Source: Prosopocoilus inquinatus (lineage: Eukaryota > Arthropoda > Insecta > Coleoptera > Lucanidae). From it: a DNA stretch of 64,000 nt. The translations under genes were made by a program, and so were the position numbers. The stretch's first letter is position 1. The number at the start of each line of letters is the position of its first letter. Below the pieces are notes generated by a model. It searched no databases. It was not told the DNA's origin and was given only the letters and a program-made list of their open reading frames with translations. Location: contig CM069875.1 in the NCBI GenBank assembly GCA_036172665.1, positions 23,095,806-23,159,805 on the forward strand, read 5' to 3'. Below are positions 2,457 to 46,587 of this stretch, one piece after another.

Positions 2457-2782
2457 TGTTACGTTTCTAGGGTTTATGTTTATTTATTTAAACGAATAAA
2501 ACACTCGGTAAAAACTTAATCGTAATTTAATAACGCTTACAAACTAATTTATTTGTAACAATTTATTTACACACTAAAATCTAACTTCGACGATCGCTGT
2601 TCGAATTCGACTGACTGGTGAGTCAACTCCGGGCGATTTTATATCATTCGTCGCCGTCTGGAACTCTCTACGCTGGAAGATTCCAGTCTGTTCGATGTAG
2701 GCTCCAGTGGCGTGACGGCCGATGACACATAACAGCGAACCGACTTCTTGACGCCTTGCGCTAAGCCGGTTGGCGCGCCACA
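2457..2782 (-). repeat. 3' LTR of the macro-domain gypsy element
   Basis: Matches 8553-8878 over the full 326 bp with three visible substitutions, in the segment around 2690-2710. The last open frame of the element runs into this LTR and stops at 2639-2641. Confidence 0.95.
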
Positions 2783-3700
2783 CTGCTCCCTTCTTAAAAA
2801 CGTTTCGTCTCGAAATGTTCCTGGTGATAGTCTTGAAGGAGGGTGTCGGAATCTACATGCTGGCCCATTCTTGCAACTTCCCGTCTGGAAGAAGTAACAG
2901 TCTACGGTTTTGCTGTTGCTGACTGTTGCCTGTGGGTGGTGGCTGCAGACTAGGACTTCAATTCCCGTTCTGTGGAAGATGACTTCCAGCATGCTTCGAA
3001 TTACTCTCCAGTCTAGTCCGTCCAATCCGCAGCCCAATTTGGGGATGGCTAACTTCATCTGATGGTTCTCTATTAGCTGTCTCCTCAGGCTATATAGGGC
3101 TCTCCACATACTTTGATAGTCAGGTTTACAGCTTGATGTCTTCTTAGTGACTAAATAATGCACGTGGCGCCTCCGATCTGCCGTCGAATCAATGATCCGC
3201 AAGCTCTTGCCTACCACGGGATGCTGTCTTCGTAGCTCCTCGATTTGGCCAAATTTCTTCCTAAACACCTGAGCGATTCCTTTGGACATTTTCAGGTCTT
3301 TTGCTACGCAGTGGGCCAGACTGTACTCCAGTGGCACTTTAAAGAGATCTTGTTGCTTCTCCGTGGTCACTCCAAACCGTGCCTTGCTTCCTTCGGCGTG
3401 ATGAGACATGAAGGTTTCGAAGTTCACTTCGGAAACTTGCGCCCTTTGTACTGTCCCTTCATCTGCTTCTCCATGGTAAGGGGCTATCCGGTTGAAGTGG
3501 ATTACTTTGGGTTTGCCACGGGGGACCTTCTTGATGCGGTAAACGACGTCGTTGATCCGTTTCATCACTTTGTAAGGACCTTCCCAAGAGGTCTGTAATT
3601 TTGGGGAGAGGCCTCGACGTCTTTGGTGGTTATAAAGCCAGACCAGTGCTCCAGGTTGGTATCCCCCGTGTTGAGCGTTGACGTCATAGTGCTCCTTCAT
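2639..3700 (-). CDS. Integrase C-terminus fused to OARD1-like macro domain and CCCH zinc finger
   Basis: This 353-codon frame is the end of the gypsy pol. Residues 1-75 are the integrase C-terminal domain (GYQPGALVWLY, SWEGPYKV, VIHFNRIAPY). Residues ~118-253 are a macro domain of the OARD1/TARG1 (ALC1-like) type: SLAHCVAKDLKMSKGIA, FRKKFG, YLVTKK and PKLGCGLDGLDW. The lysine of the RKKF stretch (148/149) and Asp227 of GCGLDG sit where the family has its catalytic Lys and Asp. Enzymes of this class remove ADP-ribose from acidic side chains, so activity here is an inference. A CCCH finger follows (C268-x7-C276-x5-C282-x3-H286), then a basic tail ending inside the 3' LTR. The first Met is not a true start: the frame begins just after a frameshift within the integrase, and the 4-base ATGA overlap with the upstream frame is a by-product. 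Confidence 0.85.
   Translation of the reverse strand: MKEHYDVNAQHGGYQPGALVWLYNHQRRRGLSPKLQTSWEGPYKVMKRINDVVYRIKKVPRGKPKVIHFNRIAPYHGEADEGTVQRAQVSEVNFETFMSHHAEGSKARFGVTTEKQQDLFKVPLEYSLAHCVAKDLKMSKGIAQVFRKKFGQIEELRRQHPVVGKSLRIIDSTADRRRHVHYLVTKKTSSCKPDYQSMWRALYSLRRQLIENHQMKLAIPKLGCGLDGLDWRVIRSMLEVIFHRTGIEVLVCSHHPQATVSNSKTVDCYFFQTGSCKNGPACRFRHPPSRLSPGTFRDETFLRREQCGAPTGLAQGVKKSVRCYVSSAVTPLEPTSNRLESSSVESSRRRRMI
2783..2795 (-). other. Polypurine tract of the macro-domain gypsy element
   Basis: On the minus strand AAGAAGGGAGCAG lies directly before the TGTGG start of the 3' LTR. This is the expected place for the plus-strand priming purine tract. Confidence 0.8.
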
Positions 3701-4734
3701 CCGATCGCTGGCCGTCTGTATATTGTGACTTGGTTGTGGATATCATCCATTTTCCTGCGTAATTTGCTCACGTAATCTTCGTCGGCAGAGACTTCGCCAG
3801 GCTTCACACCAAACTTCAGGTCGCAGGGCAGTCTCGGCTCTCGCCCGAATACCACTTTCGCGGGAGTCTCCCCTGTTGTCTCATGAACAGATGAGCGGTA
3901 TGCCATTAGAAACAGGGGGATGTACGTGTCCCAGTCCCTCTGATGATCGGAAACGACCTTGGACAAATGTCGGTTGATGGTTCTATTGAACCTTTCCACC
4001 ATTCCGTCCGACTGTGGGTGGAGTGCAGTTGTTCTCGTTTTTCGTACGCCGAGCAGAGTACACACGTTCTTGAACAAGGCCGATTCAAAGTTCCTTCCTT
4101 GGTCTGAATGCAGTTCCATAGGTGCACCATACCGACTGATCCATTCCCTGACAAGGACTTCCGCAATAGTGACTGCCTCTTGGTTAGGTAGGGCGTAAGC
4201 TTCAACCCACTTACTAAAGTAGTCCATTACCACGACGATGTACTTGTTTCCACCATTCGTTTCTGGAAACGGGCCGGCTACATCGATGGCAACTCTCTCA
4301 AAAGGACTTCCAACGTTGTACTGTCTCATGGGAGCCTTACCCCGCCTGTGGGGGCCGTTACTGGCTGCGCAGACTGCACACTTTCTGCACCAATCCTTCA
4401 CGTCTTCCTTACAGTTCACCCAGTAAAATCTTTCGCGCACCTTCTCCATAGTCTTCTTAACTCCCAGATGTCCTCCCGAAGTTCCATCGTGAAGTTCCCT
4501 CAGAACTTCTGGCACCCTATTCTTGGGGATTAGTAACTGTGTCTTCTCTTCCATGCCTTCAGAAGACCACGATCCAACACTATGGAGTCCCACTGCGCCC
4601 AGTATGATTTTACGGACGGTGCACATGGTGCTACCTCTTCCCAGGTAGGCCTCGCGTCCCTGCTTTTCCACTCTAGCACTAATTTCAAATCCGGGTCGTT
4701 CTCCTGGTCTCTTCGCAGTTCTTCGGCTTGCCAT
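3697..4734 (-). CDS. Gypsy integrase catalytic region (frameshifted part of pol)
   Basis: Carries the HHCC zinc-binding region (GGHLG ... WCRKCAVC) and the DDE core: VAIDVAGP, then LHSDQGRNF, then DGMVERFN, with exactly 35 residues between the second Asp and the Glu. It inserts the cDNA into host DNA. The meaningful integrase sequence begins near 4559; upstream of that the frame only overlaps the RNase H-linker frame and is not protein-like. The frame leaves the pol frame near 4550 and the integrase C-terminus continues in a third frame from about 3728. In intact gypsy elements these parts are one reading frame, so both changes look like single-base losses in this copy. Confidence 0.9.
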   Translation of the reverse strand: MASRRTAKRPGERPGFEISARVEKQGREAYLGRGSTMCTVRKIILGAVGLHSVGSWSSEGMEEKTQLLIPKNRVPEVLRELHDGTSGGHLGVKKTMEKVRERFYWVNCKEDVKDWCRKCAVCAASNGPHRRGKAPMRQYNVGSPFERVAIDVAGPFPETNGGNKYIVVVMDYFSKWVEAYALPNQEAVTIAEVLVREWISRYGAPMELHSDQGRNFESALFKNVCTLLGVRKTRTTALHPQSDGMVERFNRTINRHLSKVVSDHQRDWDTYIPLFLMAYRSSVHETTGETPAKVVFGREPRLPCDLKFGVKPGEVSADEDYVSKLRRKMDDIHNQVTIYRRPAIG

Positions 4735-7415
4735 TTGTCATCAGCAATGGCTGTCCTCGCAGTCGTGGCTACTTTCTCGTCCAAACGACTACAGTGCTTA
4801 CAGTCTTCGGCACAGGGTCTTCTCGACAAAGCATCGGCATTTCGATGGCTAGTTCCTGCCCGATGCTGAATTTCAAAATCGTACTCCTGAAGTCGTTCGA
4901 TCCATCGTGCAACTTGCCCTTCTGGGTTCTTGAAACGGAGAAGCCATTTTAGAGCGGCGTGGTCGGTTCTCAGCAGGAAGCGTCTACCATACAAGTACTT
5001 GTAGAGGTGTTCTATCGTTTTTACGACGGCTAGCAATTCCCTTCTTGTGACGCAATAGTTTCGTTCCGGCTTTGATAGGACTTTACTGAAGTAGCCGATC
5101 ACCTTCTCTTGCCCCTCTTGTATCTGGGAGAGTACGCCACCAATCCCAACGTTGCTAGCATCTGTGTCCACGACGAACTTGCCTTCGGGGAGAGGATAAC
5201 TCAGAATAGGAGCACTAATCAAGTACTGCTTTAGTTGTTCAAAGCCAATTTGACACTGTTGGTCCCATTCAAATGGACGACCTTCTTCAGTGAGTTTTGT
5301 CAACGGCTTAGCAATGTCTGCAAATCCAGGAACGTAGCGCCGATAGTAAGTGCACAGGCCAAGGAAACTCCTTATTTGGTGTTTATTTCTGGGAGTTGGC
5401 CAGTCTTTCACCACCTGAATCTTCACAGGGTCCACGGCGATTCCATTTCCATTAACAATGTGCCCCAGGTAATTCACTTCCTTCTGGAACAGGTGACACT
5501 TCTTGAGGCTAAGCTTTAGTCCAGCTCCGCGAAGCCGCTGGAACACTCCTTCCAGGTTCCTTAGGTGGTCGTCGAACGTCTTTCCCACGACAATTATGTC
5601 GTCAAGGTACACCATGCACGTTGTCCAGGACAGACCTTTCAGAACCGTCTCCATTAACCTCTCGAATGTCGCTGGGGCATTACATAATCCGAATGGCATC
5701 ACTGTGAACTGCCACAGACCCATACCAATGGAAAACGCCGTCTTTTCTCGATCTTCGGGCGCCAGCTCCACTTGCCAATATCCACTCTTTAAGTCCAAAG
5801 TTGAGAAGATCTTTGAGCCGGCCAGGGTGTCCAGGGTATCATCAATCCGTGGCAGGGGATAGCTGTCCTTCTTGGTGACATTATTGAGTAACCGGTAGTC
5901 TACACAGAACCTGGTGGACCCATCCTTCTTCTTCACAAGCACTACTGGTGACGCCCACGGGCTGCTTGATGGTTCTATTACATTATCCTTTTCCATCTCG
6001 CGAATAATGCGTTCCGCTTCCTCACGCTTCGCCAACGGTAATCGCCTTGGAGCTTGACGGATAGGTCTTTCTTCTCCAGTCTCTATTTTGTGTTTCACGA
6101 CATCCGTTCTTCCCTTGGATCCATTTTCTACCTCAAATACATCTTGATAGCGGCCGATCAGATTCTTTGCTTTTGTCTTCTGGTCTGGAGTCAATTCCTG
6201 GGCTGTTGACATAACCATTTCCCATAATTTCTTTGGGACTTTCGCTTCTGGCACGTTTGTTTCAAGTTGCCGGGAGATGGAGGACACCATGGTGCAGCTT
6301 CCCAAGATTGTTCCTTTCTTGATATTGACAGAGAAACAATTGACGTTCATCAGGCGGACAGGTACTTCCTTCTTCGCCGTCAACAACATTTTCCCAACGA
6401 GGACTCCTCTTCCAATCTTCTGATCATCTGTATTACGTTCAACCATAACGACCTGCCCATCTTGAAAAACACCGTTCAGTTTTGCGTCGACGATAACCTC
6501 AGTCCTGCTGGGTAATACAACGTCTTCAGAGAGGACTACTCGAGCGGCCACGTCTCCTCGTTGATGTAGAACCAACTCCTCATTATTGACCACCATTACG
6601 CCACGCTTTATGTCCAATTGAAACCCGTGGGCACACATGATGTCCATGCCCAAAATTGCCTCGTCCTCTATGTCCGCTACCAGTGCACGGTGCTTTATTG
6701 GAGTTGAACCAATGGTGATGATAACCTCTACTTCACCGTGGACAGTTGCTGATTTTCCAGTTGCAGTTTTCAGTCTCCACTTGGTCGGTTCAGTGCGTCC
6801 AGATGACTTAATGACGTCGGGTCTTAGGATGGTCTTCGTCGCACCCGTATCCAACAACATGGTGTGAGGAATGTCATCAATGGTAACATCCACGAAGACA
6901 CTGCTGGTTAACTTCCGTAGGGATATTACTTGTTTGGCTTTCGTCTTTGGGGGCCTTTGAATATGGATCGACGGTTGTCCCTCTGCACCGACCCGGCTTA
7001 GTTTAACTGTGGCTTTCTTGGATCCTGTCTGGACTTTGGACATCGCCTGCGAACATGTCCTTCCTCCTGGCCACACCAGCGGCTTCTTCTGCTTGAAGAC
7101 CTGTTCCACAATGCGGCGAACATCCTCGGCGGTGGCATATTCCTTGGATTGCCCCTTATTAGCAGATCCCACCTTGGCGTTGGCGGACTCTTCTTCTTCT
7201 TCCTCTTGGAAGTCCATAGCCGCTCGCACCTTGACATGCCCTCTTGAAACTCGTCTCGCCGCTTCAAATTCCAAGGCATAAGCCAATGCGTTCTTGGATG
7301 TCTTCGGATGGGTCATTCTCAATGCCTGCTGGTTGTCTAGGTCACGGATTCCATCTATGAAGGTCTGCACCGTCAAACATTTGAGGAATTCAACAGGAGC
7401 TGTGGGATATGCCAA
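4530..7415 (-). CDS. Gypsy gag C-terminus, protease, reverse transcriptase and RNase H
   Basis: A 961-codon frame. Residues 1-60 continue the capsid-like gag domain that starts in the preceding frame. An aspartic protease follows with its LLDTGAT active site at 187-193. Reverse transcriptase spans about 465-640, with FCVDYRLLNN, LDLKSGYWQ, MPFGLCNAPATF and the catalytic YLDD at 603-606. RNase H spans about 742-870 (FVVDTDAS, RRELLAV, RTDHAALKW, NADALSR). The frame is continuous with the upstream gag except for one TAG at 7416-7418. The first codon after that stop is TTG, so there is no real start here. No CCHC knuckle is present in this frame, but one is visible in another frame at 7030-7080. 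The frame ends out of phase with the integrase near 4550. Confidence 0.93.
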   Translation of the reverse strand: MAYPTAPVEFLKCLTVQTFIDGIRDLDNQQALRMTHPKTSKNALAYALEFEAARRVSRGHVKVRAAMDFQEEEEEESANAKVGSANKGQSKEYATAEDVRRIVEQVFKQKKPLVWPGGRTCSQAMSKVQTGSKKATVKLSRVGAEGQPSIHIQRPPKTKAKQVISLRKLTSSVFVDVTIDDIPHTMLLDTGATKTILRPDVIKSSGRTEPTKWRLKTATGKSATVHGEVEVIITIGSTPIKHRALVADIEDEAILGMDIMCAHGFQLDIKRGVMVVNNEELVLHQRGDVAARVVLSEDVVLPSRTEVIVDAKLNGVFQDGQVVMVERNTDDQKIGRGVLVGKMLLTAKKEVPVRLMNVNCFSVNIKKGTILGSCTMVSSISRQLETNVPEAKVPKKLWEMVMSTAQELTPDQKTKAKNLIGRYQDVFEVENGSKGRTDVVKHKIETGEERPIRQAPRRLPLAKREEAERIIREMEKDNVIEPSSSPWASPVVLVKKKDGSTRFCVDYRLLNNVTKKDSYPLPRIDDTLDTLAGSKIFSTLDLKSGYWQVELAPEDREKTAFSIGMGLWQFTVMPFGLCNAPATFERLMETVLKGLSWTTCMVYLDDIIVVGKTFDDHLRNLEGVFQRLRGAGLKLSLKKCHLFQKEVNYLGHIVNGNGIAVDPVKIQVVKDWPTPRNKHQIRSFLGLCTYYRRYVPGFADIAKPLTKLTEEGRPFEWDQQCQIGFEQLKQYLISAPILSYPLPEGKFVVDTDASNVGIGGVLSQIQEGQEKVIGYFSKVLSKPERNYCVTRRELLAVVKTIEHLYKYLYGRRFLLRTDHAALKWLLRFKNPEGQVARWIERLQEYDFEIQHRAGTSHRNADALSRRPCAEDCKHCSRLDEKVATTARTAIADDKWQAEELRRDQENDPDLKLVLEWKSRDARPTWEEVAPCAPSVKSYWAQWDSIVLDRGLLKAWKRRHSY

Positions 7416-8453
7416 CTAGGCCAGACGCGCAACGTCTGCTTCGAATTCCTGAAGACTTTCTCCGGATTTCTGACAGCGATTCCTCAATTGCGCATGGTAT
7501 ACCTCGGTCAGATGGGCCTGTCCGTAACGCATTTCCATCCTATTCACCAGCTTGTCGAAGTCTTCTTGTTCCTCTGGCGGCATCGTCTGTAGCACATCGA
7601 TTGCGTCCCCTCTCAAGGCCACAATTAACGAAGTGGCTTTTTCGCTGGCCGTCCATCTGTTCGCCTTTGCTGCTGCTTCGAACTGTTTGAAGTAGTTGGG
7701 CCAAGAAGACTTTCCATCGAACGTTGGTGGTTTTATTTTTAATTTCGAATTTTCTGCTGGTCCTTCCACAATTCGGGTTTCATTATTTTCTAGTACTTCT
7801 ACTGGTGGCTGATCCCCGAACACTCGCAACCCCGCCATGATTTGTTCCAAATTTTTGATTTTGTTATCCTGCTGGAATATTATTTCTTCCACATTTTCTT
7901 GCAGGTTTCTTGTTTCTTCCGATATTTTTACCACTAGTTTATCTTCGAGTCCTTTCGTCTGTTCTAGAAATTCACCCTTCAAATTTCCGGACTGTTCTAG
8001 AAGTTTCTCGTCGAAATTTCTGGATTGCTCTAGAAATTTCTCGTCTAAGTCTCTAGATTGTTCCAACAATTTATTCTGTAATTTATCGAAATTTCCAGAT
8101 TGTTCTAGAAGCTTCTCCTCTAAATTTCTAGATTGTTCTCGAAGTTCGTCCTTGAAATTTCCAGATTGTTCTCGAAGTTCGTCCTTGAAATTTCCAGATT
8201 GTTCTAGAAGCTTTTGCTCTAAATTTCTGGATTGTTCTCGAAGTTCATCTTTCAGGATTTTATTAAAATCGGCGGGACCACACGAAATTTCGAAAAGGAA
8301 GGTCTTTGGATCTTCGCCAGCTGTCAACAAATCGGATCGGAGACGCTGTTGAAGTGCGCCTTTCAAACCACAGGTTTCTAACTCTCGTTCTTCCAATTCG
8401 GTTTTTAATTCGGCCACTTTTAAGTCTTTCAACAACACTTTTCTCGTAGCCAT
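7416..8453 (-). CDS. Gypsy gag N-terminus: SAP-like motif, hendecad coiled coil, capsid start
   Basis: 345 codons starting at an ATG about 100 bp inside the 5' LTR. Residues ~8-40 resemble a SAP motif (LKVAELKTELEER ... LKGALQQRL), a helix-extended-helix DNA-binding fold. Residues ~67-165 are about nine 11-residue repeats of the LREQSGNFKDE kind, predicted as a coiled coil and encoded by an imperfect 33-bp repeat at about 7959-8255. From ~226 on comes the Retrotrans_gag capsid domain (PPTFDGKSSWPNYFKQF). That domain is cut by TAG at 7416-7418 and resumes in the same frame right after, so the stop looks like a nonsense mutation and not a natural gag end. Programmed readthrough cannot be excluded but would be in an unusual place. 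Confidence 0.88.
   Translation of the reverse strand: MATRKVLLKDLKVAELKTELEERELETCGLKGALQQRLRSDLLTAGEDPKTFLFEISCGPADFNKILKDELREQSRNLEQKLLEQSGNFKDELREQSGNFKDELREQSRNLEEKLLEQSGNFDKLQNKLLEQSRDLDEKFLEQSRNFDEKLLEQSGNLKGEFLEQTKGLEDKLVVKISEETRNLQENVEEIIFQQDNKIKNLEQIMAGLRVFGDQPPVEVLENNETRIVEGPAENSKLKIKPPTFDGKSSWPNYFKQFEAAAKANRWTASEKATSLIVALRGDAIDVLQTMPPEEQEDFDKLVNRMEMRYGQAHLTEVYHAQLRNRCQKSGESLQEFEADVARLA
7959..8255 (-). repeat. 33-bp imperfect tandem repeat inside gag
   Basis: About nine units of 33 bp, each encoding 11 residues such as LEQSGNFKDEL. On the plus strand the recurring words are TTTCCAGATTGTTCT and TTTCTAGATTGTTC. One unit is out of register (FDKLQNK). Confidence 0.85.
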
Positions 8454-8533
8454 TGTTTTTTTTTTCGATACTGTACTTATTTAATAATCTGGTTAAATTT
8501 AATTTACTTTAAATTGTTTATTTATTTGCACAA

Positions 8534-8551
8534 ACCCCACACCTGACACCA
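8534..8551 (-). other. Primer-binding site, tRNA-Leu-like
   Basis: One base after the 5' LTR end the minus strand reads TGGTGTCAGGTGTGGGG. This closely resembles the complement of the 3' end of animal tRNA-Leu, with one or two mismatches as I recall that tRNA. The position is secure; the tRNA identity is moderately sure. Confidence 0.65.
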
Positions 8552-8552
8552 C

Positions 8553-8878
8553 TGTTACGTTTCTAGGGTTTATGTTTATTTATTTAAACGAATAAAACAC
8601 TCGGTAAAAACTTAATCGTAATTTAATAACGCTTACAAACTAATTTATTTGTAACAATTTATTTACACACTAAAATCTAACTTCGACGATCGCTGTTCGA
8701 ATTCGACTGACTGGTGAGTCAACTCCGGGCGATTTTATATCATTCGTCGCCGTCTGGAACTCTCTACGCTGGAAGATTCCAGTCTATTCGATGTAGGCCC
8801 CGGTGGCGTGACGGCCGATGACACATAACAGCGAACCGACTTCTTGACGCCTTGCGCTAAGCCGGTTGGCGCGCCACA
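8553..8878 (-). repeat. 5' LTR of the macro-domain gypsy element
   Basis: The 326-bp partner of 2457-2782. Read on the minus strand it starts TGTGGCGCGCC and ends GTAACA. Confidence 0.95.
8705..8740 (-). promoter_or_regulatory. Candidate LTR core promoter: TATA box and initiator
   Basis: On the minus strand ATATAAAATC (8731-8740) is followed about 30 bp downstream by GTCAGTCG (around 8708). This is TATA-plus-TCAGT initiator spacing typical of arthropod promoters. The same pair occurs in the 3' LTR. Confidence 0.5.
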
Positions 8879-9115
8879 ATATCTTTCCGCAATCTGTATT
8901 TTTATTGTTTACGCTCAACTTTCTGATTTATTTTCATTTCATTGGGCTTTCAAACTGCACCCAACCGTCCTTAGAATTTAAGAAAAGTTTATTATTGGGG
9001 TGTAGATGTGCGGCTAAGAAGTACCCTTAAAACCGCTCGTATAATTGGCCTGCGTGCACTTGCTAAAATAATTTTCTGTATTATATTTCTGGTGAATTCT
9101 ATCGTAGTTTAATTT

Positions 9116-10029
9116 TATACAGTCTGTTTTAATTTGGCTGTCACGGCCAGATATGTCGACTACTGTTTGAGATACGACAAAATTTTATAGAAGAAAATTT
9201 TTTCTACATTTAATTTTAAATAGAATATACTCAATTTTATTACGTTTTCTAAAACCGTAAAAAAATCTCTTTACAACTGTATGTAACTTGCTATAGTTAT
9301 CTAATTAACTAGAAACATAAATCGATAATTAACAAATGCATGCTTACGAAATTTGGAGCTTTATTCGAAAAAGTAGGCGGTGAAATAAATGAAATTATTT
9401 TTCTGCTTCCAATTGAACAATGTTCCTTAATACTTACTGTCTTGACAACATGTGCTATTCAACATAATACTACATAACAACACAAAGTAACAATAAATTA
9501 ATGAAGTAGCACAAAATGGCTGATAGTTGCAAAGAATGGAGGTCACTTTGACCAAATACTGTAAATATTATGAACTGAAATTTCAAACTTCATTTACGTA
9601 TTCATTTATTGTTACTTTGTTCATGTTCTTGTGTTGTATTTATGTTGAATAGCATATGTTTTCAAGACAGTATTAAGAAACATTGTTACAAAAGCTGAAA
9701 AGTAACTCCATTTGTTTCACTGTGCACTTTTTCAAATAAAATTCTCGCGCATTTGTTATTTAATTATCGATTTATGTTTTTAATTGGTTACATAACTAAG
9801 ACATGTGCTGTATCTTTGTAAAGATAATATTTTACAGTTTCAGTAATCGTAATAAAATTGGGTACGTTCCATTTAAAATTTCGAATGTATTTGCTACGTC
9901 TAACACATTTGCTGTTTAATAGTTTTTCCGTCTAAGGCAAATAATAAAAGTAGACCAACTTTCTACAACATTTTTTAGTATCTTTAATAATAGCCAAGCT
10001 GTGACAACTAAAATCAAACAAACTGTATA
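9116..10029. mobile_element. Foldback element, about 0.9 kb
   Basis: The two halves are inverted copies around a centre near 9550. Outer ends are TATACAGTCTGTTTTAATT at 9116 and its complement AAACTGTATA ending at 10029. Inner landmarks are TTGGCTGTCACGG against AGCTGTGACAAC, and GACAACATGTGCTATTCAAC against TTGAATAGCATATGTTTTCA. The arms have diverged. Flanking TA dinucleotides fit a Tc1/mariner-mobilised element. No transposase frame is left. Confidence 0.75.
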
Positions 10030-11246: not shown

Positions 11247-11349
11247 AACAAAAAGAAGAAAGTTCATTAAGTAAGCAGGGCGTTTATTTAAGGAAAATTT
11301 TAAGTGCACAAGGTGTGTATCGAATTAGTGTATCCATTTTTGAAGTAAC

Positions 11350-14300
11350 ATGGCGGAACAAGAGGGAACCCGAATGCAAGTTTGCGGGAACATTGGGAGT
11401 TTGAGAGAATACAACACATCAGAAAATTGGAAATTGTATTTTGAGAGGTTAGATCAGTATTTACTTGCCAATTATGTTGCAGAAGATAGAAAAGTGGCAG
11501 TTTTGCTAACATCTATAGGGGATGAGGCTTACAGAATTTTGAGGGATTTATGTGACCCGATTCTTCCCAAGGATAAAAGTTACAGGGAACTTTGTGAAAT
11601 TTTGGACCGTCAGTTTTCGCCAAGAGTTTCGGTATACAGGAAAAGAATTGAATTTTACAATATTAAGCAAAACACTAATGAAAGCGTGAATGAATATTAT
11701 GTTCGTATTAAAAATGCAGCTGCTTTGTGTAAATTTGGTAACAGATTGCAAGAAATATTAGCCGATAAGTTTGTAACGGGATTAGCGAATAGGAAAGTGC
11801 TCGATAGACTGTGTGAGGAAGATGAAAGTAAAAAATTAGAAGATTTGATGGAAATTGCTCTCAAAAGAGAAGCAGCGGCCAAGGTGGAGGCAACGGAGGT
11901 AAATCGTTTAGAATTTAAGAAGAAACCAGCAAAGGAGTGCAGCTTTACGAAGAAGGAGCAGGGTGCAAACAGTGTAAAGGAAATGAACCAAAAGGAACAT
12001 TTTCAAAACTCTAAAGTGCGATGCAAAGCATGTGGAAAGGGGGCGCACAATTTTGCAAACTGTAAGTACAAACAGTACATATGTAAAATTTGCAAAAAAA
12101 AGGGACACTTAGCAGTAGTATGTAACAGTGTTGCAAAGAATCATTTTGTTGAGGTAGAAGGACAGATTAGTAACGATGAAGATGAAAAGATAATCGACAT
12201 GTTTCATGTAAATGCGTCTGAAATTGTAAAACCAATTACGGTTAAATTAGCCATTGAAAATGTACCCATTTACATGGAAGTAGATTCAGGAGCAGGGGTG
12301 TCATTATTGCCAGAAAATGTTTACGAGGAAAAATTTTCACACATAAAATTGTTAACTACGGCAGTTAAATTAAGAACATATGATGGAAACTGTATTAAAC
12401 CAGTAGGCGAAATTTTTGCAGAAGTTAAATATAAAAATAGTCAGAAACGTTGTAGATTTATAATAGTAAAAGACGGTAGTAAACCCTTATTAGGTAGAGA
12501 TCTTTTAAAATCATTTAATATGATAGATGCTATTACACAAACCGTAGCAAGCATTCAAGTTGTAGAGAAAGAAAATCCATTAAATTTAGATATATTGTTA
12601 AGTGAATTCCAGGATTTATTTAAGGTCGAATTAGGTAGTTTTAAGTATAAAAAAATTAGCTTAAATTTAAGAGAAAATGTAACGCCTGTATTTCATAAAC
12701 CTAGACCGATACCTTTTGCTTTTAAGGACAAAGTAAATGCGGAATTAGATAAATTAGAAAAAGAAGGAGTAATAGTAAAAATTGAGAGTAGCGAGTGGGG
12801 TACGCCTTTAGTGCCGGTGATAAAACCAAATAACGTTTTGAGACTCTGTGCAGATTATAAAGTCACAATAAATAAATTTATTGAAGATTGTCAATATCCT
12901 CTTCCAAGGATTGAAGAAATTTTTGCGGCATTACAAGGAGGTCAAGAATTTACCAAGCTAGATTTTAGAAATGCTTATAATCAGTTATTAGTAAGTGAAG
13001 ACACTGGTAAACTCTTAGCCTGGAGTACACATCGCGGTATATATGCATTAAATAGATTACCATATGGGACCAAGCCAGCTTGTGGTATTTTTCAAAAGGT
13101 GGTCGAGAAAGTTTTGCAAGGAGCAAAAGGGGTAGTAAATTTTATGGACGACATTGTGGTAACAGGTAAAACAAAGAAAGAGCATCTGGAGAATTTAAAG
13201 GCAGTTTTTATTCGATTAAATGATGCAGGATTTAGATTGAATTTAAAAAAATGTAGCTTTTTCGAAACAAAAATAAATTACTTAGGACACATTATTAGTG
13301 CAGAAGGCTTACAAAAAGATCCATTAAAAGTAAAAGCAATTTTAGACTCACCTAAGCCAACAGATATTAACGAAATTCGAAGCTATGTAGGGATGGTTAA
13401 CTACTATGGAAAATTTTGTCCAAAGCTCAGTGGAGTATTAGAACCTTTGTATCAATTGTTAAAAGCAAATACACCATTCAAGTGGACTAAGGAATGTGAG
13501 TTAGCGTTCAAGACGTCAAAAGAAATGATAACTTCAGATATGGTATTAGTACATTATAATCCCGATTTTCCATTAAAATTGGCTTGTGATGCATCATCCA
13601 AGGGAATCGGAGCTGTTCTATTGCATGTTTTTCCCGATAACATAGAAAAGCCTGTTTGTTTTGCTTCACGTGTTTTGAATAACGCAGAAAGAAGATATTC
13701 GGTGATTCATAAGGAAGCACTAGCGTTATATTGGGGCGTCAAGAAATTCCATCAGTATTTAGCAGGACGTAAATTTATCTTGGCGACCGACCACAAACCA
13801 CTTTTAGCACTTTTCGGAGAGGAAAAAGGAATTCCTACAATGACAGCTGGAAGACTGCAGAGATGGGCAGCATACATAGCGGAATTTAATTATACATTGA
13901 AATACATTAAAGGATGCAAAAATGCAGGAGCAGATGGTCTCTCACGTTTACCCTTAGATGTAAAAGATGAGGAAGAAATGAAGAATGATTATCTACATTT
14001 CATAGAAGGATCGATGCCAATAGATGCATTAAAAGTGAGAAGTGAAACCAGAAATGATCCTATTTTGAAAAAAGTCTACGAATTTATCAATGGAGGATGG
14101 CCAGAAAAGGTAACAGAAGAATTAAGACCATATACAAAAAGAAAACTCGAACTCAGCATTGATAAAGGAATTATCATGTGGGGATACAGAGTGGTCGTAC
14201 CAAGGAAACTACAAAAAGCTTTACTAGATAATGTTCACAGCACACACATGGGAATGACTAAAATGAAGACATTAGTTCGTTCTTACTTTTGGTTTCCAGG

Positions 14301-15444
14301 AGTGGATAAGCAGATTGAATACCTAGTGAATGGTTGTTCAGCGTGCGTTTCTGTAAGACCCGAACCAGAAAAAGCTAAATTAATAAAATGGGAACAAGCA
14401 GAAAGACCATTTGATAGAGTTCATTTAGACTTTTTTGGACCGGTGGAAGGAAAGATCTATTTAATTTTGATCGATACGTTTACGAAGTGGCCAGAAGTAA
14501 TAGAAATGCAGAGGACAGACACGAATACGACAATCGAGAAATTACGAGAGATTTTTGCGAGATTTGGGTTACCTAGGAAAATAATAACAGACAATGGTAG
14601 ACAATTTACTTCTTCAGAATTCATGACATTTTGTTCTAAAAATAAAATAAAATTTATCACGTCACCGCCTTACCATCCAGCGACTAACGGAGCTGCCGAG
14701 AATACAGTAAAATCTGTGAAACGAGGGATATTTAAAGCGTTAAAGGATAAAAGGAATCGCAATGTTTCTTTAAGTACCATAATTAGCAGATATTTATTGA
14801 CTTATAGAAATACACCTCATTGCGAAACACAGGAAAGTCCGGCAGTGCTGATGTTTGGAAGAAGACTTCAAACACATTTAGACTTCTTAAATAGTAGAAA
14901 CTTGTTAAGTCAGGGTACGCAGGAATTGTATTTTAAAGGAAAAAGAGAAGTAAGTTTTGAAGAAGGTGAAGAAGTGTATGCAAGGGATTACAGAAATCCA
15001 AACAAAAAAGGGTGGAAGAAAGCAAAAATAGTAGAAGTGTTAGGTCTGAGAACATATTTAGTGAAAGTTATGGAAGAAAATTTAGTGTGGAAAAGGCACA
15101 GTGATCAGTTACTAAAAAGCAATGACTGTAATAAAGACATAGATGTAAGTTTAGAGAGTAAGGAGACTTCAGAGAGTAATAGGGAAGTTAATGTAATACC
15201 AGTACCAATCTTACCCTTATTTAATGACAGATTAAACACAAGCAAAAAGGTAGCTAGTATTACAGAAACTGCTCCAATGGAAAAAGAAAAAGTGAACGTA
15301 GCTGAAAAAGAGATTAAGAGTAAAGTAGAATCTAAAGATAATGAAGAGAATAGGAAAATTGAAAATGTGTCAAAATCGAAAATCGATATAGTATTGTCGC
15401 GACCAAAACGTACAATTAAACCGCCAAATCGTTTAAATTTGTAA
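11350..15444 (+). CDS. Complete gag-pol polyprotein of the Mag-like element
   Basis: 1364 codons from an ATG 122 bp after the LTR to TAA at 15442-15444, with no stop or frameshift. In order: capsid-type gag (about 1-190); two CCHC knuckles (CKACGKGAHNFANC at 225-238, CKICKKKGHLAVVC at 245-258); aspartic protease with VDSGAG (D312-G314); RT with LCADYK, LDFRNAYNQ, LPYGTKPACGIFQ and the catalytic FMDD at 598-601; RNase H (ACDASSKG with D747, ATDHKPL with D814); integrase HHCC (H963, H966, C996, C999) and DD35E core (D1027, D1081, E1117). A Lys/Glu-rich tail closes with RPKRTIKPP. All catalytic residues are present, so the enzyme set looks complete. Confidence 0.96.
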   Translation: MAEQEGTRMQVCGNIGSLREYNTSENWKLYFERLDQYLLANYVAEDRKVAVLLTSIGDEAYRILRDLCDPILPKDKSYRELCEILDRQFSPRVSVYRKRIEFYNIKQNTNESVNEYYVRIKNAAALCKFGNRLQEILADKFVTGLANRKVLDRLCEEDESKKLEDLMEIALKREAAAKVEATEVNRLEFKKKPAKECSFTKKEQGANSVKEMNQKEHFQNSKVRCKACGKGAHNFANCKYKQYICKICKKKGHLAVVCNSVAKNHFVEVEGQISNDEDEKIIDMFHVNASEIVKPITVKLAIENVPIYMEVDSGAGVSLLPENVYEEKFSHIKLLTTAVKLRTYDGNCIKPVGEIFAEVKYKNSQKRCRFIIVKDGSKPLLGRDLLKSFNMIDAITQTVASIQVVEKENPLNLDILLSEFQDLFKVELGSFKYKKISLNLRENVTPVFHKPRPIPFAFKDKVNAELDKLEKEGVIVKIESSEWGTPLVPVIKPNNVLRLCADYKVTINKFIEDCQYPLPRIEEIFAALQGGQEFTKLDFRNAYNQLLVSEDTGKLLAWSTHRGIYALNRLPYGTKPACGIFQKVVEKVLQGAKGVVNFMDDIVVTGKTKKEHLENLKAVFIRLNDAGFRLNLKKCSFFETKINYLGHIISAEGLQKDPLKVKAILDSPKPTDINEIRSYVGMVNYYGKFCPKLSGVLEPLYQLLKANTPFKWTKECELAFKTSKEMITSDMVLVHYNPDFPLKLACDASSKGIGAVLLHVFPDNIEKPVCFASRVLNNAERRYSVIHKEALALYWGVKKFHQYLAGRKFILATDHKPLLALFGEEKGIPTMTAGRLQRWAAYIAEFNYTLKYIKGCKNAGADGLSRLPLDVKDEEEMKNDYLHFIEGSMPIDALKVRSETRNDPILKKVYEFINGGWPEKVTEELRPYTKRKLELSIDKGIIMWGYRVVVPRKLQKALLDNVHSTHMGMTKMKTLVRSYFWFPGVDKQIEYLVNGCSACVSVRPEPEKAKLIKWEQAERPFDRVHLDFFGPVEGKIYLILIDTFTKWPEVIEMQRTDTNTTIEKLREIFARFGLPRKIITDNGRQFTSSEFMTFCSKNKIKFITSPPYHPATNGAAENTVKSVKRGIFKALKDKRNRNVSLSTIISRYLLTYRNTPHCETQESPAVLMFGRRLQTHLDFLNSRNLLSQGTQELYFKGKREVSFEEGEEVYARDYRNPNKKGWKKAKIVEVLGLRTYLVKVMEENLVWKRHSDQLLKSNDCNKDIDVSLESKETSESNREVNVIPVPILPLFNDRLNTSKKVASITETAPMEKEKVNVAEKEIKSKVESKDNEENRKIENVSKSKIDIVLSRPKRTIKPPNRLNL

Positions 15445-34527: not shown

Positions 34528-34757
34528 AATTATGTTTTTTATAAACACGTTAATGTTTTTTTAAAACATTTATTAAAGTTACAGATGGGCAGAGTAACGG
34601 TTACAAGTTCTGCAGATATGACTAAACTAAAGTTCTGACCCTAATATATATGCTATAGTTTGTATATTTAGTAAAGATAACGATAAATGAGTGGACAATA
34701 ACAATGCGTCACTTGTTTATATTACTAATCAGGGGTCATAGAGCGTTTAACATAACT
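34528..34757 (-). repeat. 3' LTR of the errantivirus
   Basis: 230 bp, one visible difference from 49279-49508 (in the T-run near 34558). The env frame ends 11 bp inside it. Confidence 0.95.
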
Positions 34758-36456
34758 CCTCCCTTTTTAAATTGGAAAATAATAGTGAAGTATTATTTTC
34801 ATCCCTCGCTTCCTCTGATTTATCGCTTTTTCTTACTTTTGATTGTTTTTGGGTCTTTCTATATTTGAGTATGATGAACACGAAAACAAAGCATATTATT
34901 ATTAAAACTAGGTTGCTCAAAAAGAAGGAAATCTTCAGGGGGTGCCATTCTCTGGTTCTAGAAGTTGGCTGCATACTGGATTGTCGTTGTAACTTCGAGA
35001 TGTCATCCAGGTTCAAGTCCTCTAAGTGCAGGTGTTCTAGATTTGGGAGTTCTTGTATTTCCTCTGTTTTCATTTTAGGTAGAATGAAGGGTTCTCCTTG
35101 AATGATTTTTTCTTCATTGATGATTTTGAAGCTTCCGTCCATTACTTGACAATGGAAAGGGATTTTGACGAGGCTTGGTTTTTCTATTATGTTGTATCCA
35201 GTAGTTTTACATTTTTTCTGTAATTTTATTGGCAATTTGGCAGGTACAATTATTATGTAGTTCTTGTTGATTTGTTCATAAATGGTATTACTCGTAGATA
35301 TGGGAGTCAATTGACATTTAGTAGTCTTGATATTCTGAATGATGGATGTCACACAGTCTTCCTCTTTTATAAAGGGTCTATTATTACAGATGTAGGTATT
35401 TTCAATCGTTGGACATTCTTCATCTTCATATTGATGGCCTTGGTTATTGAGTATCAGGTAAGGACTTTTTGGTACAAGGGTAAAATTATTTTGAGGAACA
35501 GGAAATATATGGTAATATTCAAATTGTATAGGACTGAAGACAGGAATATGCATAAGGAAGATTACTTTGTCATTATGAACAGTCACCTTTGAGTTAGCTA
35601 AATTGTAATAAGAATGAATGTTTTTGAATTTAAGAATTTTATTTTCTTCGTAAAGTTTAACTAATGTATCTATCATATTGTTCATGTCTTCAAATGATAT
35701 GACAGAGTTATGTAAGGTATTTAATCTAGCAAAAACCACTGCGTTTTCCAAATTGTCTAGAAATCTTAATAAGTTTTGGCAATTTAGTAAGACTTGATCA
35801 AGAGTATTTTGAGCCCTTATAAATGCAGAAATGTCATTAATTATTTTTTGTACATTGTCTTGAAAGTAATTAAGTCTCTGTTCTATTAGTTCTTGATTTT
35901 TCTTAAGAGTGCTGATAGAATGATTATAGTTTTCTATTAATCTTTTGGTCAGGGACATTTGGTATTGCATTTGATTTTCTAATGCATTTTGGTTACGTGA
36001 TAGAATTTCTAAAGCATTATTAAAGTTTTCTTCATCGTCTGAGTCTAATGTTCCAAATAAGAATTTAGACGTTTTTCCTACGATGTTCAATAGTCCTCTT
36101 TTATTTCTTACCTGTGGCATAAGATTGTTTAGTTTATATTCTGCCTCTGAGATAAGATAGTGGACATGTGTCAAGGTATTTTTTAGGACATTAGTATACG
36201 TTAGTGTTCTAAGTGATGGTGAATTATAAATAGTATCGTTAATAGTTTTGAAATAATCAATGTTGTTATTTAGTAACTCAATTAATGGTTTAATTTCTAC
36301 ATAATGGACAAAGGTATGCTTGGTTTCTATGATTCTACATGGACCAAGGTGGAACGGAAGGATGTGGGAATTTATGGTAGTGATTTCTATGTCGTCATTT
36401 GCTGTGGCTGTCATTATCGTTAGCTGTATTAGGGATAGGGTCGTTATCAGAATCAT
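34747..36456 (-). CDS. env: Errantivirus envelope glycoprotein, open frame intact
   Basis: 569 codons. An N-terminal hydrophobic signal (MILITTLSLIQLTIMTATA) is followed by an ectodomain with a furin-type RNKR at 117-120. A Gly-rich apolar stretch (GLLNIVGKTSKFLFG) directly behind it fits a fusion peptide, as in baculovirus F-like envelopes. A long helical, Asn-rich region follows. A transmembrane segment lies at about 508-530 (SNLVLIIICFVFVFIIL), then a basic cytoplasmic tail. It would sit in the cell or particle membrane and serve entry; function is inferred from the family. The start overlaps the integrase end by 62 bp in another frame. In errantiviruses env is made from a spliced RNA, and I did not locate the splice sites. 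Confidence 0.88.
   Translation of the reverse strand: MILITTLSLIQLTIMTATANDDIEITTINSHILPFHLGPCRIIETKHTFVHYVEIKPLIELLNNNIDYFKTINDTIYNSPSLRTLTYTNVLKNTLTHVHYLISEAEYKLNNLMPQVRNKRGLLNIVGKTSKFLFGTLDSDDEENFNNALEILSRNQNALENQMQYQMSLTKRLIENYNHSISTLKKNQELIEQRLNYFQDNVQKIINDISAFIRAQNTLDQVLLNCQNLLRFLDNLENAVVFARLNTLHNSVISFEDMNNMIDTLVKLYEENKILKFKNIHSYYNLANSKVTVHNDKVIFLMHIPVFSPIQFEYYHIFPVPQNNFTLVPKSPYLILNNQGHQYEDEECPTIENTYICNNRPFIKEEDCVTSIIQNIKTTKCQLTPISTSNTIYEQINKNYIIIVPAKLPIKLQKKCKTTGYNIIEKPSLVKIPFHCQVMDGSFKIINEEKIIQGEPFILPKMKTEEIQELPNLEHLHLEDLNLDDISKLQRQSSMQPTSRTREWHPLKISFFLSNLVLIIICFVFVFIILKYRKTQKQSKVRKSDKSEEARDENNTSLLFSNLKREELC
34758..34768 (-). other. Polypurine tract of the errantivirus
   Basis: AAAAAGGGAGG on the minus strand directly precedes the AGTTATG start of the 3' LTR. 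It lies inside the env coding frame. Confidence 0.8.
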
Positions 36457-37462
36457 TTTCCTGTGATTCCTGTAACAAAGATTTTTTATAGGTTTTCTTA
36501 GGTTTTTTGATAGTTGATTTATGATAGATGCCTAATTTTGTTCTTAATTTTTCACCTTCATCTACTACAATTTTTGTTTGTGTAAATTTTGGTTTAGCTT
36601 TATTTCTTTCTTTTGTTTTAATGTATGCATATTCTTTGTTTTGATATGACTCTGGTTCTTGTCTCTTTTCATTGAGTTTTTTTATTACGGATTCTTTCCT
36701 ATCGTTATTTTTTTGTTTAATTCTGTCGTATAATGACTTTGTTTTTTCTTTGTGGTTTTGTACATAGTTAGAGATAATTTTTTCATCAGATAATTCAAAG
36801 GGATCGTCTGAATGGATGTGTCCTTTAACTACTTCGAATGGTGTATGACCTGTGACAGAATGAATAGTGTTGTTGTAACTGAAGATAGCGTATTTCATTA
36901 AAGTGTTAGTGTTTTCATTAGGTTTTTCCAATTTCAAACATCGAATTTCTTCAGCAATTGTGGAATGAAATCGTTCAACTGGGGAATTACTATTTGAGTT
37001 CTTTGAAGTGGTGTAGTGAAGTTCTATTTTATGTAATTTACAAAGATCTTCAAAATTGTTATTTTTAAATTCACTTCCACGATCGACAGTAATTCTATAA
37101 GGGAGTCCATGATGTGTCATGAAAGTTAAAGTGTTGTCAATTATATTTAATGATGAATTTGATTGGATGGGGTATGCTTGACCATATCGCGAGAAGGAAT
37201 CTAGTATAGTAAAATATGAATGGTTTAATATTTTGAATGTATCTGCGTGTATATGTTCGAACGGTCTACTGGCTGTAGGTGTAAGATTAAATTTTATTAC
37301 GGGTGGATTTCTATCGTATTTTGCCATTTGACAGATTTTGCAATTATTAACAAAGTTCGTGATGTCTTTAATCATATCGGGCCAGTAGTAGTTCCTACTT
37401 AAGGATGTTTTCATTTCATTTATTCCTTTGTGGCAAGTTTTACCGTTATGGTGGTATTCCAA
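36395..37462 (-). CDS. Errantivirus integrase (3' part of the gag-pol frame)
   Basis: 355 codons with the zinc-binding HHCC region (HNGKTCHKG ... NNCKICQMA) and a DD35E core: D74 in IHADTF, D127 in VDRGSEF, E163 in SPVERFHS, with 35 residues between the last two. A Lys-rich C-terminal tail follows. The apparent start is a TTG and is not biological. The frame stays open upstream to the insertion point at 37524, where it has the same phase as the gag-protease frame across the BEL insertion. Before BEL arrived, the two parts formed one polyprotein. Confidence 0.9.
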   Translation of the reverse strand: MEYHHNGKTCHKGINEMKTSLSRNYYWPDMIKDITNFVNNCKICQMAKYDRNPPVIKFNLTPTASRPFEHIHADTFKILNHSYFTILDSFSRYGQAYPIQSNSSLNIIDNTLTFMTHHGLPYRITVDRGSEFKNNNFEDLCKLHKIELHYTTSKNSNSNSPVERFHSTIAEEIRCLKLEKPNENTNTLMKYAIFSYNNTIHSVTGHTPFEVVKGHIHSDDPFELSDEKIISNYVQNHKEKTKSLYDRIKQKNNDRKESVIKKLNEKRQEPESYQNKEYAYIKTKERNKAKPKFTQTKIVVDEGEKLRTKLGIYHKSTIKKPKKTYKKSLLQESQENDSDNDPIPNTANDNDSHSK

Positions 37463-37503
37463 CTTTAATTTTTGTTCATCAAGATCGATTATATCTTGGA
37501 GGA

Positions 37504-39534
37504 TTACGTTGGTTCTAATGAATTTGTTTCGTATTCGCGTGATTCTCCAAGCTCCAGTGCATCAGGTTTTATTGGAAGAGAGACTATAAATCTACCTTCT
37601 GCGTCTCTTTTGTAGGTACTGTTAAAAAGATTTTCACAAAATTGTTCTTCTAGTGAAAGTGAAACTGATCCCGGACAGGTTTCCACTTCCCAGAATTTCG
37701 TGAGGTTTGCATCAAGCTGATCGTTCGTAATCATGTTACACATAACTGTTTTTATTTTCAATCGAGATGGATTAAGATGGCCGGAAAGTACCCAACCGAG
37801 CAGTGTTTTCTGTAAAGTTGGTTGTCCTTTACCTGTATTTATTTGTCCGACGCACAACAGCTTATAAAATAAGTCGGCCCCGATTAGCATATCAATAGGT
37901 CGAGACATATGAAAATCTAGATCTGCTAATTGAATATTTGCTGGTATTGTAACGCTAGCTTTTGGGAAAGAGATTAGTGGAATGTGTTCTGAAATAGCGT
38001 TCAAAACTAAACATTCAATATTTGCTTCGAATTTATTAAGCATTGCTCCTATTCTTACGTTAACAAGGTGAGATACAGTAGTTGTGGTTTGATTAATTCC
38101 TGTGATTGCTATTTGTGACACTTTTCGTGGAAGGTGTAATCGATTTGCTAAGTCTTGAGTAATAAGGTTACTCTGTGAACCGCTATCCAAAAGAACACGA
38201 CAATTGAAAGTGCGGCCCTTATTATCGTATACCTTAATCATCGCTGTAGATAATAAAACTTGGGATGTCAAATGGTAAATGGAAGTGCAAGTAGTTAAGG
38301 ACGTCATCCCTTGTACCTGAGGTTGTTCCTTAATCTCCACCAGCTGATTTGTCACTTTCTCCTTGTGCAGTAAAGTATTGTGTTTCTGAGAACAAGTCCT
38401 ACAGTTTCCAGCTGAGCATTTGGCTACTGAATGACCTGGTTGTAAGCAATTGAAGCACAACCCTTTGTTTTTAACTTCACGCAATTTATCATCTATTGCG
38501 AGGTTTAGAAATTGTTTGCAGGAATAGATTTTGTGCGCCTTATTACACAGCGGACATGATAGTGCTGTCGTACTAATGTTTGTTAATGACTTCTTGTAAT
38601 GATTCGACTTGCTTATTGATGACGCAACGACACTACTTGATTTCTGAATTGCTTCCAGCGCATTACATTTTTGCGTGAGAAAATCTACAATTTGTTTGAA
38701 ACTCGGAAGTTCATTCGCAGGTAGACTTGATTCCCATTCTTTCACAGTGGTACTATCTAATTTGGATGTTACGAGATAAATTAGTAAATCACACCAAGTT
38801 TGCGTAGGCCGTTTCATCGCGGTCAATGCTCGAACGTGCTTTAATACTCCATCAAGTATTGTCCGAATTGCCGAAAAACTCTCTTTACCTGCCGCAGGTA
38901 GTTCGTGCATTGCCTGAATGTGCTTATGTACTATGATGCGCTTATTATCATATCTATCGCGTAACATTTGCCAAGCGTCATTATAATTAGCAGGAGATAT
39001 TTCAAGTGAATCAACTAACGCAGACGCATTTCCGCGTAAAGCACTTTTCAGATAATGAAATTTGTATGTGTCCGAAATGGTTTCATTTAAGTGGATTAAT
39101 GAGTTGAAGGTGTCATAAAACGGAAGCCAGTCTTCGTAATTTCCAGAAAACGTAGGTAAATGGATGACGGGTAGTTTTATCGGTAGCTTATTACCGAAAA
39201 ATGCTCCGGAGGAATTTAAATTTGTTGTGTTGCTGCTGTGAGATACGATTGTTTGATCGCCGCTAAGAATCAACGTCTCCGCTTGTTTCATTATCGCGAA
39301 ATATTCGTTTTCAAATGATTCGCGTTCACGATTTGCAGGATTTATTTCTGTTTCATCTACTAGCTCTATTTCTAACTGAATTTTCTCGAATTCGTCCAAA
39401 ATACTTTCAAGCTGACTTCGTCTATTTCTTATTTCTAAGTGATCGTTTTCCGTGGCATTTTCAAGGAAGGTTCTGTAACGCGTTAATTTTGCTTTTAACG
39501 CGCTGCGTTGAAGCTTTAGTTTCTTTAGCGTCAT
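37504..39534 (-). pseudogene. Truncated second BEL gag (runs out into the errantivirus)
   Basis: 676 codons, identical to the N-terminal 667 residues of the complete BEL polyprotein through LELGESRE. It includes the DUF1759-type gag, the zinc-knuckle region and the DSGS aspartic protease. At 37534 it joins the 13-bp LTR stub, passes the GAATT duplication and stops at 37504, adding nine unrelated residues. RT, RNase H and integrase of this second unit are deleted. Confidence 0.9.
37525..37537 (-). repeat. 13-bp remnant of a third BEL LTR
   Basis: TGTTTCGTATTCG equals the low-coordinate end of the BEL LTRs (39803 and 45943) and abuts the GAATT duplication. The last four bases, TTCG, are shared with the gag sequence it is fused to. 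Confidence 0.85.
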
Positions 39535-39784
39535 TGTATGATGTAAAATGAATTAGAAATGATAGCAACGGATAAGAATAAAGCGATTTTGGACAAATGA
39601 GGATTAGAAAGGCAATTGATTGGAGACTCACCTTTCCACTGTGTGATATTCTTCTCGGGACCCCTACGGACGGTTGGCACGATGCTGTCGAACTCCTTCC
39701 GCTCGTCTTCCAGGGAAATATCTTGATATAACACGATGGGTTCGTGTTATCACTTTGCACATTAGTCACTTAATTTTTTAATTA

Positions 39785-39802
39785 ATCCGGCTCGAAGGAC
39801 CA
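39785..39802 (-). other. BEL primer-binding site, second unit (tRNA-Tyr)
   Basis: Plus-strand ATCCGGCTCGAAGGACCA is the 3' end of animal tRNA-Tyr including CCA, as I know it. It lies directly inside the LTR and is identical to 45925-45942. Confidence 0.85.
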
Positions 39803-40447
39803 TGTTTCGTATTCGTTTAATTTAACGAACCCGGTGATGCAACCACCGTATGCAAAATTAATCCACGCGGCCTGGAAGGTTGTAAGGCTTCTTTAAAACG
39901 GTTCGCGAGAATTAATTACAAATGTTTGTCGCCGGCACAAGGATAAAAAACCAAGTGGTAACTTAAAACGTATTTAATTTGATTATTTACATAAAAGAGG
40001 AGATGTGTGAAATGCAATGAGTTGCGGGCCTTAGAGTCTGCAGGGCATCCAACCGTCCTGGACAAGTCGCTACGTACAACTGAATTCTGAAATGAAATAT
40101 TCAAAGAGCCTAAAAATTTCTCTGAAAAACTAAATGGAAGTGACGCGTAAACCTTGATTGGTTAGGAAATATTTTCCCAGGGCGGCTGCATAGCAATGTT
40201 GTTCCCAGACCTTCCAAAAAGCAATTTACTTAAACCTTTTCGGAAGAGAAATATAAAATTTTACAAGTTAACAATCTGAGAACTGAATCTAAATGAATAC
40301 TGACGAAAATCTCAGAAGGTGGCCTGTGAGTAACATAGCCTGGACATCTGGTATTTGCGGGCAACTCTGTTGTGAGAAACGACTAAATTCTACGTAAATG
40401 ATATTCTAACATTAAATCTTAATAACTAAAAAAATGAGTTCGTAACA
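39803..40447 (-). repeat. BEL LTR (3' LTR of the complete unit)
   Basis: 645 bp, starts TGTTACGAAC and ends GAAACA on the minus strand, apparently identical to 45943-46587. Confidence 0.95.
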
Positions 40448-40461
40448 TATCCGCCCGCCTT
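40448..40461 (-). other. Polypurine tract of the complete BEL unit
   Basis: AAGGCGGGCGGATA on the minus strand lies directly before the TGTTACG start of the LTR, about 50 bp after the polyprotein stop. Confidence 0.75.
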
Positions 40462-40508
40462 GAAAGCTCGTGCTTTCAACCGAACACACACTGAGTGTCT
40501 GACACGCA

Positions 40509-45674: not shown

Positions 45675-45924
45675 TGTATGATGTAAAATGAATTAGAAAT
45701 GATAGCAACGGATAAGAATAAAGCGATTTTGGACAAATGAGGATTAGAAAGGCAATTGATTGGAGACTCACCTTTCCACTGTGTGATATTCTTCTCGGGA
45801 CCCCTACGGACGGTTGGCACGATGCTGTCGAACTCCTTCCGCTCGTCTTCCAGGGAAATATCTTGATATAACACGATGGGTTCGTGTTATCACTTTGCAC
45901 ATTAGTCACTTAATTTTTTAATTA

Positions 45925-45942
45925 ATCCGGCTCGAAGGACCA
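45925..45942 (-). other. BEL primer-binding site, complete unit (tRNA-Tyr)
   Basis: An 18-nt match to the 3' end of tRNA-Tyr with CCA, starting at the first base after the 5' LTR on the minus strand. Confidence 0.88.
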
Positions 45943-46587
45943 TGTTTCGTATTCGTTTAATTTAACGAACCCGGTGATGCAACCACCGTATGCAAAATTA
46001 ATCCACGCGGCCTGGAAGGTTGTAAGGCTTCTTTAAAACGGTTCGCGAGAATTAATTACAAATGTTTGTCGCCGGCACAAGGATAAAAAACCAAGTGGTA
46101 ACTTAAAACGTATTTAATTTGATTATTTACATAAAAGAGGAGATGTGTGAAATGCAATGAGTTGCGGGCCTTAGAGTCTGCAGGGCATCCAACCGTCCTG
46201 GACAAGTCGCTACGTACAACTGAATTCTGAAATGAAATATTCAAAGAGCCTAAAAATTTCTCTGAAAAACTAAATGGAAGTGACGCGTAAACCTTGATTG
46301 GTTAGGAAATATTTTCCCAGGGCGGCTGCATAGCAATGTTGTTCCCAGACCTTCCAAAAAGCAATTTACTTAAACCTTTTCGGAAGAGAAATATAAAATT
46401 TTACAAGTTAACAATCTGAGAACTGAATCTAAATGAATACTGACGAAAATCTCAGAAGGTGGCCTGTGAGTAACATAGCCTGGACATCTGGTATTTGCGG
46501 GCAACTCTGTTGTGAGAAACGACTAAATTCTACGTAAATGATATTCTAACATTAAATCTTAATAACTAAAAAAATGAGTTCGTAACA
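45943..46587 (-). repeat. BEL 5' LTR
   Basis: 645 bp, partner of 39803-40447. It abuts the errantivirus at the GAATT duplication. The gag-protease frame of the errantivirus runs 36 bp into it before stopping. Confidence 0.95.

Follow-up and report, generated by a model that had tools for sequence, protein, structure and literature searches.

The window analysed here, that is, the whole stretch of 64,000 nt of the beetle Prosopocoilus inquinatus (GCA_036172665.1, contig CM069875.1, positions 23,095,806-23,159,805 of the forward strand), contains on its minus strand, at 2457-8878, a Ty3/gypsy-type long terminal repeat (LTR) retrotransposon whose polyprotein carries a macrodomain and a CCCH zinc finger behind the integrase. 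The two lie in a single open frame of 367 residues, P0001 (2639-3742, minus strand), which encodes in order the integrase C-terminal domain (residues 3-92, 3467-3736, with PF22938 at residues 55-88, 3.3e-12), a TARG1/OARD1-type macrodomain (residues 120-268, 2939-3385), a CCCH finger region (residues 277-303, 2834-2914; PF00642, 1.2e-6) and a tail of 47 codons coded by the LTR. The sequence-only reading had claimed an integrase frame that continues into an OARD1/TARG1-type macrodomain and a CCCH finger and ends in the LTR, and P0001 bears this out.

It is noted that the TARG1/OARD1 identity of the macrodomain is given by both the sequence similarity and the predicted ALC1-like macro fold, with a match of 2.3e-28 ruling out a chance motif match; the VIA-align lists covered the macro part alone. 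The catalytic pair Lys84/Asp125 of TARG1 is present as K200 (3143-3145) and D241 (3020-3022), so that the proposed check of the catalytic Lys/Asp alignment had a positive outcome, and among the 40 element rows for which there are data 36 have the Lys, 33 the Asp and 32 the complete pair, which all 40 host-type rows also have. The finger (C282, C290, C296, H300) fits the spacing C-x7/8-C-x5-C-x3-H and scores 28.7 bits with PF00642 against a cut-off of 20.5, its model confidence being low (block means 48-66). The earlier parallel with PARP12/13-type antiviral proteins, which have tandem CCCH fingers together with WWE and PARP domains, is not supported, as a single finger with no WWE or PARP match is present and its nearest match among solved structures is to the fingers of CPSF4. 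The profile check that had been proposed succeeded in part: PF00642 finds the finger and the macro fold is predicted as the TARG1 type, but the Pfam Macro model is mostly silent. It is reported once among the 35 proteins from the macro-CCCH search and never among the 18 carriers from the reverse transcriptase (RT) search, and it barely attains its cut-off in two of five longer carriers scanned afresh. The lineage may have been overlooked so far because of this silence.

The remainder of the element is that of an ordinary gypsy element; the sequence-only reading had likewise named a gypsy retrotransposon. All its coding parts lie on the minus strand. The 3' LTR in the element sense (2457-2782, 326 bp) and the 5' LTR (8553-8878, 326 bp) differ at three sites, i.e. 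323/326 positions are identical in the pairwise comparison, and they are abutted by the target-site duplication ATAT at 2453-2456 and 8879-8882. The gag (7419-8480) has a SAP domain (PF02037, 1.7e-6) and, at 7927-8245, 33-nt direct repeats; its frame closes at a stop and is the same frame as that of the open reading frame (ORF) at 4533-7415 for protease, RT and RNase H (PF13650, 3.1e-10; PF00078, 7.3e-38; PF17917, 3.7e-33). The zinc-binding and core domains of the integrase (3700-4737; PF17921, 1.1e-20; PF00665, 5e-13) lie in another frame in this copy. The Pfam order of protease, RT, RNase H and integrase, spread over two frames and the module frame, is thus that of Ty3/gypsy. The window copy is damaged, with the in-frame stop in gag and with frame changes between 7415-4533, 4737-3700 and 3742-2639. 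No Pfam match to a chromodomain, the mark of chromoviruses, is present in P0001, the macrodomain sitting in its place, and no env ORF of the errantivirus type follows pol in the element, where there is no room for a further ORF because the module frame runs straight into the 3' LTR.

The module is not restricted to the damaged copy. A search of the beetle's own genome (649.6 Mb, 173 contigs), in which the query was the module itself so that copies without it are invisible to the count, gave 111 scored places as the best 111 of 3573 candidates. The module thus occurs at no fewer than 111 places, the window included, with 92-100% identity, and by hand count 93 of the 111 listed matches have no internal stop. 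At 30 of these loci the module is free of indels, the median pairwise difference is 1.05%, and K200, D241 and C282 are invariant in 30/30. Among 20 copies tried for LTR dating, eight with no 5' LTR in the examined stretch were left out and 12 gave both LTRs, all 12 with identical 4-bp target duplications; the median LTR divergence is 0.6% over these 12, which include one pair differing at 22/322 sites. Because the LTR divergence is low, the target duplications match and the module copies are nearly identical, the module-bearing family has recent insertions. Long open copies of the family also exist in the genome. A domesticated single-copy gene is ruled out by the LTRs and matching duplications of the 12 resolved copies, and a one-off fusion, which the sequence-only reading had raised as a possible refutation, is ruled out by the genomic places together with the carriers in other species.

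The macro-CCCH query used for these carriers matched 35 proteins, and by hand count of the Pfam column the integrase C-terminal domain is present in 21; the species distribution rests partly on a search with the best 120 of 1529 matches. The suggested search for other arthropod fusions was fruitful: the integrase and the macrodomain are joined within one protein in Aromia, Exocentrus, Harmonia, Diabrotica, Leptinotarsa and Callosobruchus, and element-type macrodomains are found on shorter gene models in Pyrocoelia, Holotrichia, Brassicogethes, Gonioctena and the leafhopper Macrosteles, with no Pol piece in the Macrosteles protein. Seven carrier species fall in Cerambycidae, Coccinellidae, Lampyridae, Chrysomelidae, Scarabaeidae and Nitidulidae and, for Macrosteles, in the hemipteran Cicadellidae. 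The Harmonia protein P0017 has the integrase core, the C-terminal domain and the CCCH finger by Pfam and matches the macro-CCCH part of the window at 1.2e-64. A host gene lying beside the element is ruled out by the in-frame position of the macrodomain behind the integrase C-terminus, P0017 being likewise fused.

The history of the module was followed with an RT-based search, whose query is blind to the macrodomain and of which the best 120 of 7601 matches were used. The macrodomain is present in 18 of the best 26 matches, with five ending before its place and three being without it, while it is present in 0 of the other 94 listed matches, 79 of which have the integrase C-terminal domain (hand count). 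In the RT tree (built from the window piece and 72 of the 120 proteins listed, eight of which stop before the integrase end), the 18 carriers and the window lie inside one clade of 28 rows (SH-aLRT 99), and none of the 45 rows outside it, two of which end too early, has the macrodomain. Within the clade three rows, P0161, P0167 and P0172, end before the macrodomain or have lost it; P0167 points to a secondary loss, because finger-like and tail sequence is still retained there with the macrodomain gone. In both macro trees the element macrodomains group in a single clade apart from host-type OARD1, with 23 rows (100/100) in the first (63 of 153 proteins) and 41 rows (100/99) in the second (81 rows), which argues against several independent captures. 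The earlier claim that the captured domain is of a host-gene type is supported. Moreover, the macro and RT identities co-vary (Mantel r 0.55 over 18 rows, a value reached in none of 9999 permutations). Since there is one macro clade and one RT clade, with macro divergence following that of RT, the sequence comparisons are best fitted by a single ancient capture of a host TARG1/OARD1-type gene by an insect Ty3/gypsy lineage, followed by vertical inheritance within that lineage. It is noted separately that P0175, in a record named Erysiphe pulchra (powdery mildew), falls within the insect macro-bearing clade, and this record is probably contamination.

Based on this history, we propose that the captured domain became fixed behind the integrase C-terminal domain of the polyprotein, with a single CCCH finger next to it in many members, and that it would act as an ADP-ribosyl hydrolase travelling with the integrase and the cDNA complex. 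It would strip the ADP-ribose that host PARP-type enzymes put on the integrase, on Asp/Glu of chromatin proteins or on DNA, during integration or silencing, and the finger may contribute an RNA contact. To such an integrase-borne eraser of ADP-ribosylation, with an activity predicted from sequence and models, we give about an even chance. The proposal is consistent with TARG1 freeing Asp/Glu of ADP-ribose and reversing thymidine ADP-ribosylation of DNA (PMC9411070) and with the mainly upward change of mobile elements, many of them gypsy-superfamily members, in Drosophila lacking PARP-1 (PMC7712786). Structure matches in BFVD show macro folds in arthropod virus proteins, for example Kadipiro virus VP8 (3.9e-17, 27% identity), a woodlouse iridescent virus protein (35% identity over 112 columns) and proteins of thrips-associated virga-, flavi- and negev-like viruses, which suggests that arthropod parasites may have captured the macro fold, in the broad sense, repeatedly; a scan of viral contigs gave three pattern matches, none confirmed.

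Several points weigh against the eraser. The catalytic pair lacks one or both residues in 8/40 element macrodomains in the alignment, two of these being uncertain as a short deletion in P0056 and P0026 makes the Asp position uncertain, and five degraded-pair macrodomains (P0019, P0140, P0162, P0165 and P0026) form one sublineage, in which the fold is still predicted for P0019 and a TARG1 model is still obtained for the Diabrotica macrodomain, so that catalysis would not always be kept. The nonsynonymous/synonymous ratio of the macrodomain over the 30 own-genome loci, 0.48 (p 0.019; 0.45 in the integrase C-terminus), speaks for constraint but is biased low because the loci are the top protein matches, and a value below 1 is also obtained for the LTR-coded tail (0.67, p 0.16); for the finger p is 0.20. 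In PMC7712786 most of the gypsy-superfamily changes fall short of significance and could be indirect.

The main rival is that the macrodomain is a reader rather than an eraser, guiding the integrase from the chromodomain slot towards chromatin that bears ADP-ribose, for example at breaks or in heterochromatin. The degraded sublineage agrees with it, and so does the concentration of copies in the middle half of contigs (68 of 84 copies, out of the 111 places, on seven long contigs of known length), for which this family alone was counted and the contigs are perhaps not chromosomes. However, the pair is retained in 32 of the 40 element rows, and mid-contig accumulation is common among LTR elements. 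The insertions also show a target preference RTAY (T at position 2 in 28/29 and A at position 3 in 29/29, the LTR end being located in 29 of the 30 loci), which an ordinary gypsy integrase may show as well. A reader is possible but unlikely in our view. A passenger sequence merely carried by the element is highly improbable: the three RT-clade rows ending early or having lost the domain would agree with it, but the macrodomain is open and alignable at a median identity of 50% among 18 rows, and when the window is compared with 17 related Pol proteins its median identity, 52%, is close to the 50% of the protease (15 values), with 68% for the integrase C-terminus and 80% for RT, so that the conservation across species already argues against it.

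It could also be supposed that the domain frees the ends of cDNA or RNA in the particle from ADP-ribose or similar adducts while the finger holds the RNA. TARG1 is active on ADP-ribosylated phosphate ends and thymidine-ADP-ribose, the exact finger spacing is shared by 24 of 41 element rows, with fragments among the remaining ones, and a similar role was suggested for the NADAR domain of an Ectocarpus gypsy Pol (PMC12477816). By contrast, 7 of the 17 macro-bearing, near-full-length Pol proteins are without the exact finger, which is missing in one subclade while the catalytic pair is degraded in another. To our knowledge, no ADP-ribosylated retroelement nucleic acid has been described, and we consider this processing role improbable. 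Returning to the eraser, an extension that we regard as doubtful is that the clade bears it because beetles and other insects protect their genomes by adding ADP-ribose to retroelement proteins, to chromatin or to cDNA, through a pathway so far undescribed, with the Diabrotica-type sublineage having made the eraser into a reader.

Compared with TARG1/OARD1 (C6orf130) and the ALC1-like macrodomain hydrolases, the element domain shares the sequence, fold and Lys/Asp pair but is fused to a retroelement integrase, forms a separate clade and has the pair degraded in some members, its activity being predicted; the bacterial DarG antitoxin macrodomain keeps Lys alone of the pair (PMC9411070). Chromoviruses and other gypsy elements with an integrase-linked chromodomain or Tudor domain, both fusions occurring in Ectocarpus, likewise have a foreign module at the integrase C-terminus, whereas here an ADP-ribose macrodomain, in many cases with CCCH after it, takes this place in an insect lineage (PMC12477816). 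One Ectocarpus gypsy lineage also has an ADP-ribose-related domain in Pol, but this is NADAR, possibly of bacterial origin, and not macro (PMC12477816). Fish epsilon-like endogenous retroviruses are also LTR retroelements that can include a captured macro domain, but they are vertebrate elements with macro as additional ORFs, the relevant section making no mention of an integrase fusion (PMC4977317, citing Basta 2009). The sequence-only reading knew of no gypsy lineage with the macro and CCCH pair, and the literature searched, with most subscription papers and Repbase outside reach, yielded no account of a gypsy lineage with an integrase-macro fusion. Histone-reader domains on the integrase being already known in LTR retrotransposons, the added point is a fusion of ADP-ribosyl-hydrolase type kept across a clade. 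Such a fusion suggests that insects and retroelements contend over ADP-ribosylation, or that this modification serves as a cue for integration, and hints at an unexplored element-host conflict. Given its small size and well-known human relative, the domain lends itself to direct tests of binding and hydrolysis, with relatives lacking the macrodomain, the finger or the catalytic pair as natural controls.

Elsewhere in the window, an uninterrupted gypsy gag-pol ORF of 1366 aa lies at 11344-15444, with no Pfam match to a macrodomain. Inverted repeats with arms of 143 nt, 74% complementary, adjoin the macro-bearing element at 9212-9880. Farther on are an Env-like ORF with a Baculo_F domain (34747-36531), an integrase piece (36395-37561), two BEL/Pao-type ORFs with the same start (37504-39552 and 40509-45692) and, beyond these, a gag-like ORF with no Pfam match (46552-49029), so that 34747-49029 resembles an errantivirus-like element into which BEL/Pao elements have inserted.
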